From a bacterium (GTDB lineage Bacteria > Elusimicrobiota > Elusimicrobia > UBA1565 > UBA9628): a stretch of DNA of 38,267 nt. The notes under the pieces were generated by a model that saw only the letters and a list, made by a program, of their open reading frames with translations, was not told the DNA's origin and ran no database searches. The DNA lies in assembly GCA_021782205.1 (NCBI GenBank), contig JAJXVH010000017.1, positions 1 to 38,267 on the forward strand, in the 5' to 3' direction. Of the stretch, positions 29,061-38,267 are shown in pieces; position 1 is the first letter of the stretch, and every line of letters starts with the position of its first letter. The translations under genes and the position numbers were made by a program.

Positions 29061-29783
29061 TCAGGCGGCCGGCGTACGCGTGTCGAACTGCATCGTCGTC
29101 GCGCCACAATCGATGATGTCGCCTTCCTTAAGCACGATCGAACCGGAGATTTTTGAGCCGTTGACGATCGGATAGCCGTCGGTCACCGCGACGAGAACGA
29201 AGCCTTCCGGCTTGCGATGGATCGACGCGGCCACCTCCGGCGCCGAGCCGAACAAACCGGTACCTTTGATCGGGATGTGTACGCGGTCGGACTTGCCGAT
29301 GTAGGTGGAATTGCCCTTGAGCTCGTACTCGGGCTCTCCGACCACGCCTTTGAGCACGCGCAACCAGCCGGTTTTCTGCTTGTCGCCGCCGCTCGCGGCG
29401 GCGGTCGACGCGGCGATGATTTCGGACTGCTTAGCCGCCCCGATCATCACCGTCGCGTCCGACGAAGGCGGCGGAGGCGGGCCGGGCGGGGTCGCCGCTT
29501 CGATGACGAACACGAGCGCGTGCTTGGCGATGCCCACCACGTCATTGTTCTTCAGGTCGGCGGTCTTGACGCGCTTCTCGTTAAGGTAGGTCCCGTTGGT
29601 CGAATCCAAATCCTCGATGAAGTAAGCGTCGCCGCGCTTGCCGATGCGGCAGTGATGGCCGGAGATGGCGGGGTTGTCGATGACCACATCGTTGTCGGGC
29701 TTGCGCCCCACGCGGATCTCGTCCTTGTCGACCGCGATTTCCTTAATCACCGCGGCGTTGAACTTTAAAAGCAGCTTCGGCAT
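29061..29783 (-). CDS. FHA-domain protein with a second degenerate FHA module
   Basis: 240 residues. The N-terminal FHA domain (~1-95) has the phosphothreonine-binding signature: IRVGRKPDNDVVI (Arg24, Arg27), ISGHHCRI (Ser41, His44) and DLDSTNGTYLN (Ser61-Thr62-Asn63-Gly64). A Pro/Ser-rich linker (~97-130) contains DATVMIG around Thr111. Residues ~139-235 repeat the fold in weakened form (YIGKSDRVHI, AASIHRKPEGF, PIVNGSKI, GDIIDCG), missing the canonical SxxH and TNG residues. FHA proteins read the Thr-phosphorylation state set by Ser/Thr kinases. The gene is 19 nt from the PP2C gene and has GGAG 6 nt before its ATG. Confidence 0.9.
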   Translation of the reverse strand: MPKLLLKFNAAVIKEIAVDKDEIRVGRKPDNDVVIDNPAISGHHCRIGKRGDAYFIEDLDSTNGTYLNEKRVKTADLKNNDVVGIAKHALVFVIEAATPPGPPPPPSSDATVMIGAAKQSEIIAASTAAASGGDKQKTGWLRVLKGVVGEPEYELKGNSTYIGKSDRVHIPIKGTGLFGSAPEVAASIHRKPEGFVLVAVTDGYPIVNGSKISGSIVLKEGDIIDCGATTMQFDTRTPAA

Positions 29784-29802
29784 CTCGTTCTCCTTAACCG
29801 GA

Positions 29803-30618
29803 TCATCGCGGGAACAAACGCGAGACCAACCCCTTGACTCCGCCGGCCCCGTTCTCGGACACGCGCGCGGCCACGATCGTCACGTTGTCCACGCCCCCGG
29901 CTGCGCGCGCCTTGGCTATGAGGGCGTCGACGACCACCTTCGGCACCGGCGCGGCTGCAAGGACGCGCGCCACCTCCGCGTCCGGCACCATTTTCGACAA
30001 ACCATCCGTCGCGAGCAGTATAAGGTCTCCGGGAAGCAGCGAATGCTCGGAGACGTCCACCTGCACGTCCGCCTCCGCGCCCAGCGCCCGCGTCAGGATG
30101 TTCTGGAGGTTCGAGCGCGCGGCCTCGTCGGCCGTGATCTGTCCGCGGCGCACCTGCTCGGCGACCAAGGAATGGTCCTGCGTCAGCGCGGTCAAATCGC
30201 CGCGGCGCCAAAGATACAGTCGGCTGTCGCCCACGTGGGCGACGGTCAACGAATCCGCGTCCATATAGGCGGCGACCACGGTCGTGCCCATGCCCGCGTC
30301 CTTCGGGAACTGCCGGCCTTTTTCATAAATCAGATTGTTCGCGTGCTTGACGAAAAATTCCAACCGCCGCCCCCTCGGCGACAGACCCGGGGAGACTCCG
30401 TCCGGCGGCTGCAGCTTCGCGCCTTGGCGCGCGAAATCAAGAATGGTTTTCGTCGCCAACTCGGCGGCGACCTCGCCGGAATTATGGCCGCCCATGCCGT
30501 CGGCGACGATCAACAGGCCGAGATCCTGGTCGTAGACGAAATTATCCTCGTTGTTGGCGCGCACGCAACCCGGGTCGGTCGCTCCAGCGATCTCGACCGC
30601 GCCGCGCGCGCCCGTCAC
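29803..30618 (-). CDS. PP2C-type Ser/Thr protein phosphatase
   Basis: 271 residues, the standard size of bacterial Stp/PrpC phosphatases. Metal-binding motifs are ANNEDNF (Asp25), VADGMGGH (Asp40, Gly41), HVGDSRLYLW, LLATDGLSKM and GVDNVTIV near the end. It is a Mn2+/Mg2+-dependent phosphatase that reverses Ser/Thr phosphorylation. The start is a GTG that overlaps the kinase stop as GTGA, so the kinase and phosphatase are made together. Confidence 0.95.
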   Translation of the reverse strand: MTGARGAVEIAGATDPGCVRANNEDNFVYDQDLGLLIVADGMGGHNSGEVAAELATKTILDFARQGAKLQPPDGVSPGLSPRGRRLEFFVKHANNLIYEKGRQFPKDAGMGTTVVAAYMDADSLTVAHVGDSRLYLWRRGDLTALTQDHSLVAEQVRRGQITADEAARSNLQNILTRALGAEADVQVDVSEHSLLPGDLILLATDGLSKMVPDAEVARVLAAAPVPKVVVDALIAKARAAGGVDNVTIVAARVSENGAGGVKGLVSRLFPR

Positions 30619-33600
30619 GCGGCCTCCTTCGGCGGAGGCGGCGGAGGCGGCGCGCCACCGCCGATGCCGGAGCGCGCACCCAACTCGATGCGCATGCCTC
30701 CCGTTTCGGGCGCCGGAGGTTCGACGAAAGTCGACTCGGCGACGGACACGGCCGGCACGGGCATGGTGATCGTTTTATCCGAGAACGCCGACCCGGCGAT
30801 CGGCTCGACGGCCACCGTCTCCGCGGTCGATTCCGCGACCGGCGCCGCGGCGGATTCCTCCGGGGCCGGGACGGCCTCCGGCTCGACGGCCGCCTCCGAC
30901 GTCGGCACGGCCTCGGCTTCCAGCTCCGGCACGACTTCCTCGGGCGCCAGCTCCGCCTCGACGGCGAGCTCGGTCTCGGCCGTGGCCTCGGACACCGGCT
31001 CCGTCTCCGCGACAGACGGCCCCTCTTGCGCGGCAAGGGCGCCCGGCTCTGCCGCCACGCTCTCCACGGCGACCTCGGCCAGCGGTGCCGACGACGGTTC
31101 GGCGGCGGCGGGAGCGGCGGCCGCGACCGGAACGGCCGGCATCGGCGAGGTGCGCTCCTCCGTGCGCTCCGGCGGCGGCACGAATTGCGGCGGGCGGCGC
31201 TCCTCGTTGGGCGCCGCGGGCAGGATCGTCTCAAGCGCCCCGGCCTTCATTCCGGCCAGCGCCGAGCGCAGGGCCGTGGCCAGGTCCGCGCCGCGCTGGT
31301 AGCGCTGCGCGGGATTCTTGGCCAGCCCCTTGTCGATGATCGTCTTAAGCTCCGGCGGCAGATCGTCGCGCACGGTGCGGATGTCGGGATGAGGATCGTT
31401 GGCGATCTGAAAGAGCAACGTGCCGATGCCGTCGCCGCCCTTGAACGGCTTCTCGCCGGTGAGCAGTTCGAACAGCGCGACGGTCAAGGAGAACAGGTCG
31501 GAGCGGCCGTCGACCTTGCGCCCGGCGACCTGCTCGGGGCTCATGTAGGACGGCGTGCCCATCACCGTGCCGCTGGCGGTCTTCGACGAGGCGGTGATGC
31601 GCGCGATGCCGAAGTCGGCCACGCGGATGCCTCCGTCCTTGAGCAGCATCACGTTGGCGGGCTTGATGTCCCGGTGCACGATGCCCTGGCGGTGCGCGTA
31701 GTCGAGCGCGTCGGCGACGATCGCGACGTACTCGAGCGTCTTGTCGACGGGCAGAAGCGCGTTCTTGACGGTGTAGCGCGTCAGGTCGTGGCCGTCGAGA
31801 AGCTCCATCGCGATATAGGCGACGTCGTTCTCTTCGCCGGCGTCGAAGATGCGCACGATGTTGGGATGGTTGAGCGTGCCCGCCGACTCCGCCTCGCGAA
31901 AGAAACGCTCCTTGACTTCCTTTGAAGAGGCCCCGCCGTCGCCTTCCTCCAGCATCATCGTCTTGATGGCGACCTGACGGTTGATCTTCGGATCGCGGCC
32001 CAGATAGACCACGCCCATCGCGCCGCGGCCCAGCTCCTTGTCAATCTCGTAGCGGCCGAGCGTGGGCTTGGCGCCGCCCACAGAGGTCAGGAGCGCCGTG
32101 GCGTCCTTGCGGCCGCCCACGCCGCCGAACACCGCGCCGTCCGAGGCGGCCTTCAAGGTCTCGATCTTCTTGGCCGCGTCCTTGTATCCGGCGTCCTCGG
32201 CCACGATGTGGCCCAGCACGGAGGCGGACTTCGAGAACATCCGCTTGCGCTCGAAATCGAGCGCCAGATTGTAGAGGAGCTCCTTCATCGCTTCATCGAG
32301 CGGGCACAGGCGGAATTTTTCGAAGGCGAGATCGAGCATGCCCTGTCCTTGGAAAGAAAGGCCGAGCATCTTATTGGTCTCGATGGCCGAGGCTTCGACC
32401 AGTTCCTTGCCGCGCTCGGCGAGAAGGAACTGACGCGAAACAATGACCAGGTAGCCGGCCAGAAGCAGGGACAGCGCATAGGCGATCTGGACCCACTGCC
32501 CGAGCACGAAGTAGTAGGTCCCCGCGCCGATCACTCCAACCGAGATCAGCAGGCTGGCGACCAGGCCCCAAAAAGCGCGCAGCCGCGGGAGGATCAGGGT
32601 CAGGAAAAGCCCGATGACGGCCAGCATACCCCACTCCGCTTGCGGCGCCCACGCGGGCTGAGTCAAGAAGCGGGAGTGGATGACGTTCTCCGCCGCGTGG
32701 GCGAAAATCTCGACGTCGGCCATGCGCCCGCCCAGCGGCATCGGCCGCTCGTTGCCCACGCCGCTGGCGGTCGGGCCGATGATGACAAGCTTGTCCTTGA
32801 AGTAATCCGCGGACAGCGTGCCGCCCAGGACCTGCTGGAAGGAGACGCGCTTGATCGTGCGCGCCCCCGGCGGACCGAGGAAGGTGATCGGCATCATGCC
32901 GTCGGCGTCCAGCGGCACGCTCAAGCGTCCGGCGGTCAACACTCCGGGCTTAAGCTTGATCTGGGCTGGAGTCGCGCCGGCATAAGCCATCGCCAGACGC
33001 AGCGCGAAAGACGGATACAGCAGGCCGTCATGCAGCACCAACGGGGCGTCGCGGCGTAGCACGCCGTCCGACTCCGTATACATATCGGCGTGCGCCAAGC
33101 CCTCGGCCGATTCCGCGTAAACGGTCAAGGGCGCGACCGCCTTGTCCTCCACCGGAAAGCTCCCCGCGGGCACGGACGCGCGCACCCCTGAGCTGGACAC
33201 CTGCGGCGGCAGCGCGTTGGGCTTGTCTCGCGTCGGGTTGGCGACGAAGAATAGCGGAAGAATGACGTCGTTCGAGGCTCGAATCGAAGCCACAAGGCGG
33301 CCGTCCGAATTGAGAGCGGCGTCGGAGGAGGAGAACTCCACGTCGAAGTCCGTGCCGCGCTTCTGGAAAATTCGCCGCCCCGCGACCAGCGCGTCGAAGC
33401 GCTCCCGCAGGCGCTGGATCTCGGCGCGCCCGGTGTCGCGCTCGGCCTCGGAGTAAAGAATATCCAAGCCGACGACGCGCGGGTGCTGCCGGGCGATCGC
33501 GTCAAGAGCGGCGGCGATGCGCGAGCGCGGCCACGGCCAGCGGCCGATCTGCGCGATCGAGTCGTCGTCGATGGCGACCAGCACGATTTCGTCCGGCGTC

Positions 33601-33752
33601 TTCAGCGACTCCCGCAGAACGGACCGCAGGTCGTAGGCCTTGAACTCCAGCGCGGCCAGCGGCCCCCAGCCGACCCGATAGCCCAGAGCCGCCGCCGCGG
33701 TCAGCAGCAGGCCCAGCGCCGCGTCGATGAGCAGTCCCTTCTTTTTCTTCAT
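30615..33752 (-). CDS. CHASE2-domain Ser/Thr protein kinase with acidic Ala/Glu/Pro tail
   Basis: 1045 residues. TM1 (~7-24) leads to an extracytoplasmic CHASE2 sensor (~30-365: AIDDDSIAQIGRWPWPRS, VVGLDILYSE, VIIGPTASGV), then three close membrane segments (~372-440), a helical region (~455-545) and a Hanks-type kinase (~565-830): P-loop GRGAMG 575-580, Lys597, HRDIKPAN with Asp695, DFG 713-715, and GTPSYMSPEQ. The last ~190 residues are an unusual tail very rich in Ala, Glu, Pro and Val, followed by DKTITMPVP and a poly-Pro end. It should sense an external cue and phosphorylate Thr/Ser in the cytoplasm. PP2C and FHA genes follow in the same operon. A good promoter is at 33789-33817. Confidence 0.94.
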   Translation of the reverse strand: MKKKKGLLIDAALGLLLTAAAALGYRVGWGPLAALEFKAYDLRSVLRESLKTPDEIVLVAIDDDSIAQIGRWPWPRSRIAAALDAIARQHPRVVGLDILYSEAERDTGRAEIQRLRERFDALVAGRRIFQKRGTDFDVEFSSSDAALNSDGRLVASIRASNDVILPLFFVANPTRDKPNALPPQVSSSGVRASVPAGSFPVEDKAVAPLTVYAESAEGLAHADMYTESDGVLRRDAPLVLHDGLLYPSFALRLAMAYAGATPAQIKLKPGVLTAGRLSVPLDADGMMPITFLGPPGARTIKRVSFQQVLGGTLSADYFKDKLVIIGPTASGVGNERPMPLGGRMADVEIFAHAAENVIHSRFLTQPAWAPQAEWGMLAVIGLFLTLILPRLRAFWGLVASLLISVGVIGAGTYYFVLGQWVQIAYALSLLLAGYLVIVSRQFLLAERGKELVEASAIETNKMLGLSFQGQGMLDLAFEKFRLCPLDEAMKELLYNLALDFERKRMFSKSASVLGHIVAEDAGYKDAAKKIETLKAASDGAVFGGVGGRKDATALLTSVGGAKPTLGRYEIDKELGRGAMGVVYLGRDPKINRQVAIKTMMLEEGDGGASSKEVKERFFREAESAGTLNHPNIVRIFDAGEENDVAYIAMELLDGHDLTRYTVKNALLPVDKTLEYVAIVADALDYAHRQGIVHRDIKPANVMLLKDGGIRVADFGIARITASSKTASGTVMGTPSYMSPEQVAGRKVDGRSDLFSLTVALFELLTGEKPFKGGDGIGTLLFQIANDPHPDIRTVRDDLPPELKTIIDKGLAKNPAQRYQRGADLATALRSALAGMKAGALETILPAAPNEERRPPQFVPPPERTEERTSPMPAVPVAAAAPAAAEPSSAPLAEVAVESVAAEPGALAAQEGPSVAETEPVSEATAETELAVEAELAPEEVVPELEAEAVPTSEAAVEPEAVPAPEESAAAPVAESTAETVAVEPIAGSAFSDKTITMPVPAVSVAESTFVEPPAPETGGMRIELGARSGIGGGAPPPPPPPKEAA

Positions 33753-36643: not shown

Positions 36644-36880
36644 GTGGAGCCCACCGACCCGGTCAAGCTGGCGGAGTATCTGGAGAGGATGGTCGCGGGC
36701 CTGGAGCAGACGCGCGAGAATCTGAAGTTCGAGATTCCTTACTACAAGCCCGACGACATCCAGGGCCGCTACGCCAAGAAGTATCTGGCCTCCGTCGAGC
36801 AGCACATCGCCGACACGTCCAAGCGCCTGGAAGAACTGCGCAAGACCCTGCCCCCGGCCGCGAAGCCGAAAGGCGAGTAG
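36644..36880 (+). CDS. Small helical hypothetical protein
   Basis: 78 residues from a GTG start. The sequence is charged and helical: an [17 protein letters not shown] helix, a short [18 protein letters not shown] turn, and a second helix [20 protein letters not shown], ending in a Pro/Lys tail. It looks like a small coiled-coil hairpin with no cysteines, membrane segment or enzyme motif. I do not recognise a family. The gene is divergent from csp and ends 3 nt before the end of the convergent caspase gene. Good codon use and the helical periodicity support it as real. Confidence 0.6.
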
Positions 36881-36883
36881 CCC

Positions 36884-38267
36884 TCAGCCGGCCGCGGGCG
36901 CGGCGTCCCGGCGCAGGGGCATGGCGCGCTCGCCGTCGGGCGGGACGAGAAGCTGCGGGCTTTGATCGCGGCTGTCGCGCCGGGCCGCGTCCTCGACGCT
37001 GGGCTGGACGTAGTCGAACAAGCCCTGCACCGTGACCTCCCCCTCGGCCTCGGCCGCGCCGTTGAGGCCCTTGAGGAAGTAATACGTGAACAGGCCGTGC
37101 CCCTGGGAGGCATCGACGCCGGTGATCTCGTCGGAGGCGGACGCGCTGTAGACGATGAGGCGCGCCGCCGCACCCCGCGCCTCATCGACGCGCGTGACCA
37201 GCGGCCGCGCGCCCGAAGGCAGGACGGAGCGCCCGCCCGCGCCGGAAAAGCAGGAGTCCAGCGCCACGACCACGTCCGCGGCCGGAAGCGCGCTCAACTT
37301 GTCATACAGGCGCTTGAGCGGGTAGCCGGTGTCGGCCAGATACTTCGGATCTCCGTCCCAGGGCATCAGGTAGGAGGTGCCGCTTTGCGGGTCCGGCGCG
37401 CCGTGGCCGGCGAAGTAGACGAACACGCGCGAGCGCGCGTCCACGCGCTTGGGCAGCCAGGCTTCCACGTACTTGACCAGGCTGGAACGGGCGGCGCGGC
37501 TGTCGGTCAGCAGGATGATGTTGCGCTCCGGGTAGCCCAGGTGGAGCAGGTGATCGTGCATCGTCGCGGCGTCGCGCGCGGCGAAGTCCGCCTGGGGCAG
37601 GTTCTGATAGGACTCCACGCCGACGACCAGCGCGTAGCTGTCCGTGCTGACCGGCATCTGATAAGTGGGGATGTCCACGTCCGACGCGTAGGCCGGCGCC
37701 GCCGTGGACACGCTCACGACGGGCGCGGCCGCGGGGGCCGTCGAAGCGGCGGCGGAATACTCCGCCCGCGCCTGGGCGTAGGGCACGTACGATCCGCCGG
37801 CATAGACGTAGGCGACGCTCGGCGCCGCGGGGTTCTGCCACCACCAGTAGCCGCCGTTGTAGTAGTCCCAGCGCGCGGCGCCGGGATCATACCACCACCA
37901 GCGGTTGGCGTAGTAGCGCGTCCAGTAGTAGTTGGAGCCGTTATAGAAGCCGTACCAGTGATAGCCGCCCGTGTAGTAATGGACGTAGTTTCCGCCGTTG
38001 TAGGCGTGCCAGTAGTAGGTGTTGGGGCGCGTCTCCGTCCTCTGGACGTTGACGATCCCGGCCGCGGCGGGCGTGGCGAGAAAAGCCGCGTGCTGTACCG
38101 GCGGATGGAGAAGGGGCGCGCCTGCGACCACGACGCCGTGGGGCGGAGACTTGGGCGTCGCCGGCGGGACGGCGGGCTTGGCCGGCATCCACTCTTTCTT
38201 GGCCAACCGCGCGGGCGCGGGCGGCGGCGCGGCCGGCCGCTCGCGCGCGAACGCCCCGCCGCGGACC
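36884..38267 (-). CDS. Caspase-family (peptidase C14-like) protein with a Tyr/Trp-rich N-terminal region (5' end outside window)
   Basis: The frame stays open from the window edge to a TGA at 36884. A TTG at 38206 would give 440 aa, but the upstream Pro/Ala/Arg codons read on with no stop, so the true start (probably with a signal peptide) is outside. Counting from 38206: Pro-rich linker 1-60, a region at 64-126 where about 28 of 63 residues are Tyr, Trp or Phe with many Gly/Asn, an Ala/Ser/Pro linker, then a caspase-like domain ~188-420. Its catalytic dyad is His268 (VYFAGHGAP) and Cys319 (VALDSCFSG), in the fold order of bacterial orthocaspases. The fold cleaves after basic or acidic residues; specificity here is unknown. 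The aromatic region probably binds glycans or forms a surface matrix. Confidence 0.9.
   Translation of the reverse strand, partial: VRGGAFARERPAAPPPAPARLAKKEWMPAKPAVPPATPKSPPHGVVVAGAPLLHPPVQHAAFLATPAAAGIVNVQRTETRPNTYYWHAYNGGNYVHYYTGGYHWYGFYNGSNYYWTRYYANRWWWYDPGAARWDYYNGGYWWWQNPAAPSVAYVYAGGSYVPYAQARAEYSAAASTAPAAAPVVSVSTAAPAYASDVDIPTYQMPVSTDSYALVVGVESYQNLPQADFAARDAATMHDHLLHLGYPERNIILLTDSRAARSSLVKYVEAWLPKRVDARSRVFVYFAGHGAPDPQSGTSYLMPWDGDPKYLADTGYPLKRLYDKLSALPAADVVVALDSCFSGAGGRSVLPSGARPLVTRVDEARGAAARLIVYSASASDEITGVDASQGHGLFTYYFLKGLNGAAEAEGEVTVQGLFDYVQPSVEDAARRDSRDQSPQLLVPPDGERAMPLRRDAAPAAG

Follow-up and report, generated by a model that had tools for sequence, protein, structure and literature searches.

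An aromatic beta-sheet domain fused to a probably exported caspase-like protease in the Elusimicrobiota

The last open reading frame of the window (the whole 38,267-nucleotide stretch of DNA analysed here) runs on the minus strand and encodes what is, by its sequence, a prokaryotic caspase of the orthocaspase/metacaspase type. Ahead of the caspase part lies a stretch extremely rich in aromatic residues, which is strongly supported as a true domain of about 82 residues, and as neither the outcome of a frameshift nor low-complexity noise. Together the two parts may form an exported, envelope-located protease with a basic P1 specificity, which the aromatic sheet would tether to a ligand outside the cytoplasm and which would cleave exported proteins; we regard the chances of this account as evenly balanced. 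Discussion of bacterial caspase homologues has mostly centred on cytoplasmic enzymes of cell death, stress or defence, and the Elusimicrobiota are a little-studied phylum of groundwater and soil bacteria.

The frame is open over 460 codons and is cut by the end of the contig, which is identical in extent to the window (Table 1). The initial annotation, which counted 440 residues and in that numbering named His268 and Cys319 (His288 and Cys339 here) as an intact catalytic dyad, was correct on both residues. The TTG start that it implied does not hold: the closest orthologue (same genus, 93% identity over 328 residues) runs about 118 residues further and begins with a signal peptide. The missing 5' end of the gene was not found on other contigs of the same assembly. 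The convergent 78-residue frame lies, as far as shown, outside the system. Elsewhere in the window (29061-33752, minus strand) lie genes for an FHA-like protein, a PP2C-like phosphatase and a CHASE2-Ser/Thr kinase, the kinase recognised by Pfam and the others by eye, which are likely to form a phosphorylation signalling unit.

Table 1. Position of the caspase gene, its parts and the adjoining frame in the window (residues in the 460-residue numbering)
Feature	Position	Strand	Remark
Caspase gene, 3' 460 codons and stop	36884..38266	-	about 118 5' codons, including signal peptide, beyond contig end
Basic Pro/Ala-rich linker, tail, residues 1-53	38108..38266	-	K/R 23% over seven orthologues
PPxxH pre-module segment, conserved, residues 54-81	38024..38107	-	common to stand-alone exported module proteins
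Aromatic beta-sheet domain (W/Y module), residues 82-163	37778..38023	-	nine predicted strands
44%-aromatic core of the initial annotation	37829-38017	-	inside W/Y module
Ala/Pro/Ser linker, residues 164-195	37682..37777	-	Lys/Arg 2.5% over seven orthologues
Peptidase_C14 caspase domain, residues 211-439	36950..37636	-	Pfam match E 1.8e-13
Catalytic His288 (FAGHG)	37403..37405	-	motif and orthologues
Catalytic Cys339 (LDSCFSG)	37250..37252	-	motif and orthologues
78-residue ORF, convergent with caspase gene	36644..36880	+	stop codons 3 bp apart

In the protease part the Peptidase_C14 profile (PF00656) scores 51.2 bits against a Pfam cut-off of 21.4, and the His/Cys dyad is kept in every orthologue covering those sites. 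In fold comparison the best matches of the caspase part were the MALT1 paracaspase (E 4.4e-6, a match obtained with a longer model whose caspase part has low confidence) and caspases. An Asp residue stands two positions ahead of the catalytic Cys, as in metacaspases and MALT1, where animal caspases have Gln; from this Asp-x-Cys motif, taken with what is known of the family, cleavage after Arg or Lys would be expected.

The signal peptide is not visible in the window copy because the contig ends, and the case for export is made by its orthologues. Those of G010, G012, G034, L096 and G234 carry Sec signal peptides, judged by eye and by position, at their N-termini (MNARAAVMLSLLAFGSLAPRAFAQ, MRTRAFFLLTVLACGGVAASRARAQ, MRRSVIPVCAVLLVVAGAWAQ, MSRTLVFLLTALALAALSLQSMAQ and MKLALALLLAFSPAFG, the last beginning two codons after a stop). 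That full-length orthologues with clear starts begin in this way implies that the window protease is exported too, and bears out the earlier suggestion of a protease presented outside the cytoplasm. A hydrophobicity score alone failed, in a control, to tell exported proteins from cytoplasmic ones, since the choice of start site was free; reliance was therefore placed on lipobox positions and on signal peptides lying directly after a stop codon. Lipoboxes were found at the expected place in 17 of the 25 caspase entries listed, against 1 of 31 control frames.

The aromatic stretch had been described as containing 28 Tyr, Trp or Phe among residues 64-126 of the 440-residue numbering, and a recount agrees. 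The background in the 31 other frames of the window is 6.8%, so that the binomial chance of at least 28 in 63 is 1e-16, and no 63-residue stretch of those frames holds more than 13. A frameshift, or absence from all orthologues, had been named as what would overturn the observation. Neither applies: the frame is the right one, with a dN/dS for the segment of 0.09 and 0.24 against two same-genus orthologues, and the orthologues have the segment, except for a single secondary loss. Frameshift and chance composition are ruled out by these dN/dS values and by the composition statistics. The segment is more than the NGG-Y/W repeats originally proposed: it is a domain of about five beta-hairpin-like units, with an aromatic periodicity close to 10 residues (autocorrelation 0.30, shuffle p 0.001, with His counted as aromatic).

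That this region is a module, as first proposed, is strongly supported by its recurrence in other proteins and genomes. It recurs in two further proteins encoded by the same genome, the three copies sharing 31 invariant columns, and it is present in 27 of 58 relatives and in 39 of 341 Elusimicrobiota genomes, all of one class and mostly in other exported proteins. A GTDB-wide scan gave 23 confirmed loci, a figure obtained with a single peptide pattern, which may overlook remote homologues outside this phylum. Module-bearing contigs are labelled Elusimicrobia or Elusimicrobiota with few exceptions (two are labelled only 'bacterium', one Gammaproteobacteria), and W, H, G, F, Y and D columns are invariant in the alignment. 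Most carriers look exported and lack a protease: a signal peptide comes first, repeats rich in Pro or Gly and the module follow, and the C-terminus has a region of the form SADGTRxVxVxGxxxEAFLYD; no Pfam model matched any of the five such carriers scanned. Among these exported proteins, L020/L052 (C28), L056, L057, L059 and others make up a family with long RPQPNP or PPRQEPPRQQ repeats, the module and an unclassified beta-like region at the C-terminus, and those scanned gave no Pfam match. In L075 (G004:C53) the module is followed by what appears by eye, without Pfam confirmation, to be an outer-membrane beta-barrel, in a stretch that is partly N.

The module itself had no match at E<=10 in Pfam (three copies searched) or NCBIfam (two copies), and a profile search of PDB sequences and searches of phage, plasmid and viral (IMG/VR) sequences found no occurrence. 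The HMM search proposed at the outset thus yielded no carbohydrate-binding or cell-wall repeat family. AlphaFold2, supplied with 22 aligned sequences, predicts nine short antiparallel strands (mean pLDDT 85.8, pTM 0.64) linked by tight Gly/Asn/Asp turns, with aromatic residues on both faces of the sheet. Foldseek comparison of this model found nothing significant in the PDB (best E 0.17, TM 0.33) or in a viral library (best 0.37). The weak, non-significant matches were to beta-propellers and to small Trp-rich lectins such as RSL (E 2-5.5 and TM about 0.25 for RSL-type lectins). RSL and the aromatic cell-wall or glucan-binding repeats of the PF01473 type are built of short aromatic beta-hairpins similar in length to those of the module; the PF01473-type repeats gave no profile match to it, and the resemblance of the model to beta-propellers or RSL may be taken as a lead only.

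Module and caspase are fused in seven genomes: that of the window, G010, G012, G034, G233, G234 and that of L096. In a caspase tree, from which the truncated G010 protein was omitted, the caspase domains of the fusions form one clade (support 100/98) that includes a nested protein, L026, in which the aromatic core has been lost and only the tail of the module is kept. The fused modules cluster in turn with a stand-alone type, L098 (support 99/96), with which the window protein shares 42% identity over 128 residues, including the PPxxH segment ahead of the module. On these sequence comparisons the simplest account is a single fusion followed later by one loss of the aromatic core, in which the module was acquired on one occasion from among the stand-alone exported module proteins and retained since. 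The fusion L096 (DAIDHD010000046.1) lies on the contig labelled Gammaproteobacteria; the label is suspect because this fusion nests among Elusimicrobiota copies, and the bin is probably mislabelled, with transfer a possibility. Examination of synteny in relatives, which had been proposed as a check, disclosed no conserved operon partner: neighbouring genes around the fusion differ between genomes, and only the convergent 78-residue frame seems to recur, its antisense reading being found beside the G012 orthologue.

Purifying selection acts on the module about as strongly as on the enzyme. Against the window copy, dN/dS of the module is 0.09-0.32 in five of six comparisons and 0.60 in the sixth, and that of the caspase domain is 0.08-0.29, whereas both linkers reach 0.7-1.4 in distant comparisons, for which synonymous sites are near saturation and the values are rough. 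The closeness of module to caspase domain, while the linkers drift, indicates that the module is kept. The linker of residues 1-53 evolves fast except within the closest pair. In the orthologues a long, basic Pro/Arg/Gln-rich linker precedes the module, and over seven of them Lys and Arg make up 189 of 812 residues before the module against 5 of 202 between module and protease. A joining linker poor in Lys and Arg is what would be expected if a protease with basic P1 specificity has to avoid severing its own anchor; since low Lys/Arg content is common in Ala/Pro linkers, the contrast lends slight support to such an anchored enzyme.

The fusion is one of many caspases in these bacteria. The same genome holds about nine other caspase genes or gene fragments, relatives have up to 28 matches per genome (G029), and most of the matches that were read have export signals. 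Kelch, di-cytochrome-c, CsgG-like and ankyrin regions were recognised by Pfam ahead of the caspase domains of own-genome paralogues. Of these, L012 (C9:3289-4005), L010 (C38), L014 (C85) and L017 (C160), several with lipoboxes, are fused to Kelch, to ankyrin repeats (two) and to a CsgG/LpoB-like domain. L015 (C103:24323-25120 and upstream) is exported-looking, with two cytochrome-c domains and then the caspase domain; its Cys motif reads LDACFLAG, the catalytic Cys seemingly kept and the following SG lost. At C77:20863-21697 (matches L016, L018 and L022) a caspase copy lies in three overlapping frame pieces with stops, beside an intact one, and is either a pseudogene or an assembly error. G030 has a stand-alone module gene at a distance of 2.4 kb from an ankyrin caspase; two further genes separate them, so no weight is given to their proximity.

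What the module does for the protease can be read in several ways. The one that we prefer is that it binds a putative extracytoplasmic ligand and so keeps the enzyme there, although no family or fold match favours glycan binding, and L026 persists without the aromatic core. The module might instead be an input domain that responds to a signal from the envelope or from outside by activating a latent caspase, as one of several interchangeable sensors in a family of envelope caspases. The varied N-terminal regions that precede a similar caspase in paralogues of the same genome speak for this, but the module occurs also without any catalytic partner, and neither a signalling gene nor a conserved operon partner is seen beside the fusion, which leaves the idea doubtful. 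Self-assembly, by stacking of sheets or as an amyloid-like fibre, with an extracellular matrix that displays or releases the caspase, would suit the 44% aromatic content, the strand-turn-strand pattern and the aromatic residues on both faces, and long Pro-rich repeats reminiscent of fibrous surface proteins occur in other carriers; it is nevertheless unlikely, since the predicted antiparallel meander (pLDDT 86), with its conserved turns and invariant residues, suggests a specific fold.

A prodomain or inhibitor covering the active site until cleaved is quite improbable: the module precedes the caspase, a common position for prodomains, but the joining linker is almost devoid of the Lys and Arg at which cleavage would be expected, and the module is present in proteins that are not proteases. 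That the aromatic stretch is low-complexity sequence with no specific role is scarcely credible. Such a reading can appeal to the extreme composition and to the loss of the core in L026, yet seven of the eight clade members keep the stretch under purifying selection and its invariant positions extend across many proteins, so that conservation at the sequence level largely refutes it.

Anchoring, the preferred reading, would operate as follows. A Sec signal peptide would direct export of the caspase from the cytoplasm; the basic linker and the aromatic sheet would then tether the enzyme to a ligand in the envelope or outside the cell, with the stacking of exposed Trp and Tyr residues on a polymer as the most plausible means; and the caspase so held would cleave exported proteins after Arg or Lys. 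More tentatively, and with the balance somewhat against it, the aromatic domain might be an undescribed extracytoplasmic binding fold, and the fusion one branch of a phylum-specific system of exported caspases with interchangeable N-terminal sensing or targeting modules. If that were true, caspase proteolysis would be one of the chief means by which Elusimicrobiota act at their cell envelope. So strongly conserved a domain offers a concrete handle on what the exported caspases hold and cut. The papers found describe neither the domain nor the caspase expansion in Elusimicrobiota. In their 2012 survey, Asplund-Samuelsson and colleagues (PMC3501461) placed Elusimicrobia among the groups without metacaspases; in fact these bacteria carry many caspases, and most of those read have export signals.

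With known prokaryotic metacaspases and orthocaspases the window protein shares a caspase domain scoring over the Pfam cut-off, the His/Cys pair and the Asp-x-Cys motif; the aromatic domain is absent among the domains described in the available part of that survey. The best NCBIfam match (residues 210-425) is to the EACC1-associated caspases (NF047832), from which the protein differs in scoring 80.4, below the cut-off of 140, and in having exported orthologues. An anti-phage defence caspase would be expected in the cytoplasm and in a defence locus with partner genes, whereas the orthologues here are exported; only the generic PADLOC caspase profile matched, and no defence neighbours were recognised in the window. 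A Bradyrhizobium caspase that is secreted and carries two putatively peptidoglycan-binding YARHG domains (PMC3355149) likewise combines a signal peptide, a caspase and a putative envelope-binding domain. The YARHG domain, of about 70 residues and four predicted helices, is C-terminal, whereas the domain described here has no Pfam match and is all-beta, aromatic and N-terminal. The 2012 survey (PMC3501461) also records, outside Elusimicrobia, metacaspases with membrane segments or signal peptides and fusions to cell-wall-binding domains; with these and the YARHG caspase on record, an exported caspase joined to an envelope-binding domain belongs to a known kind.
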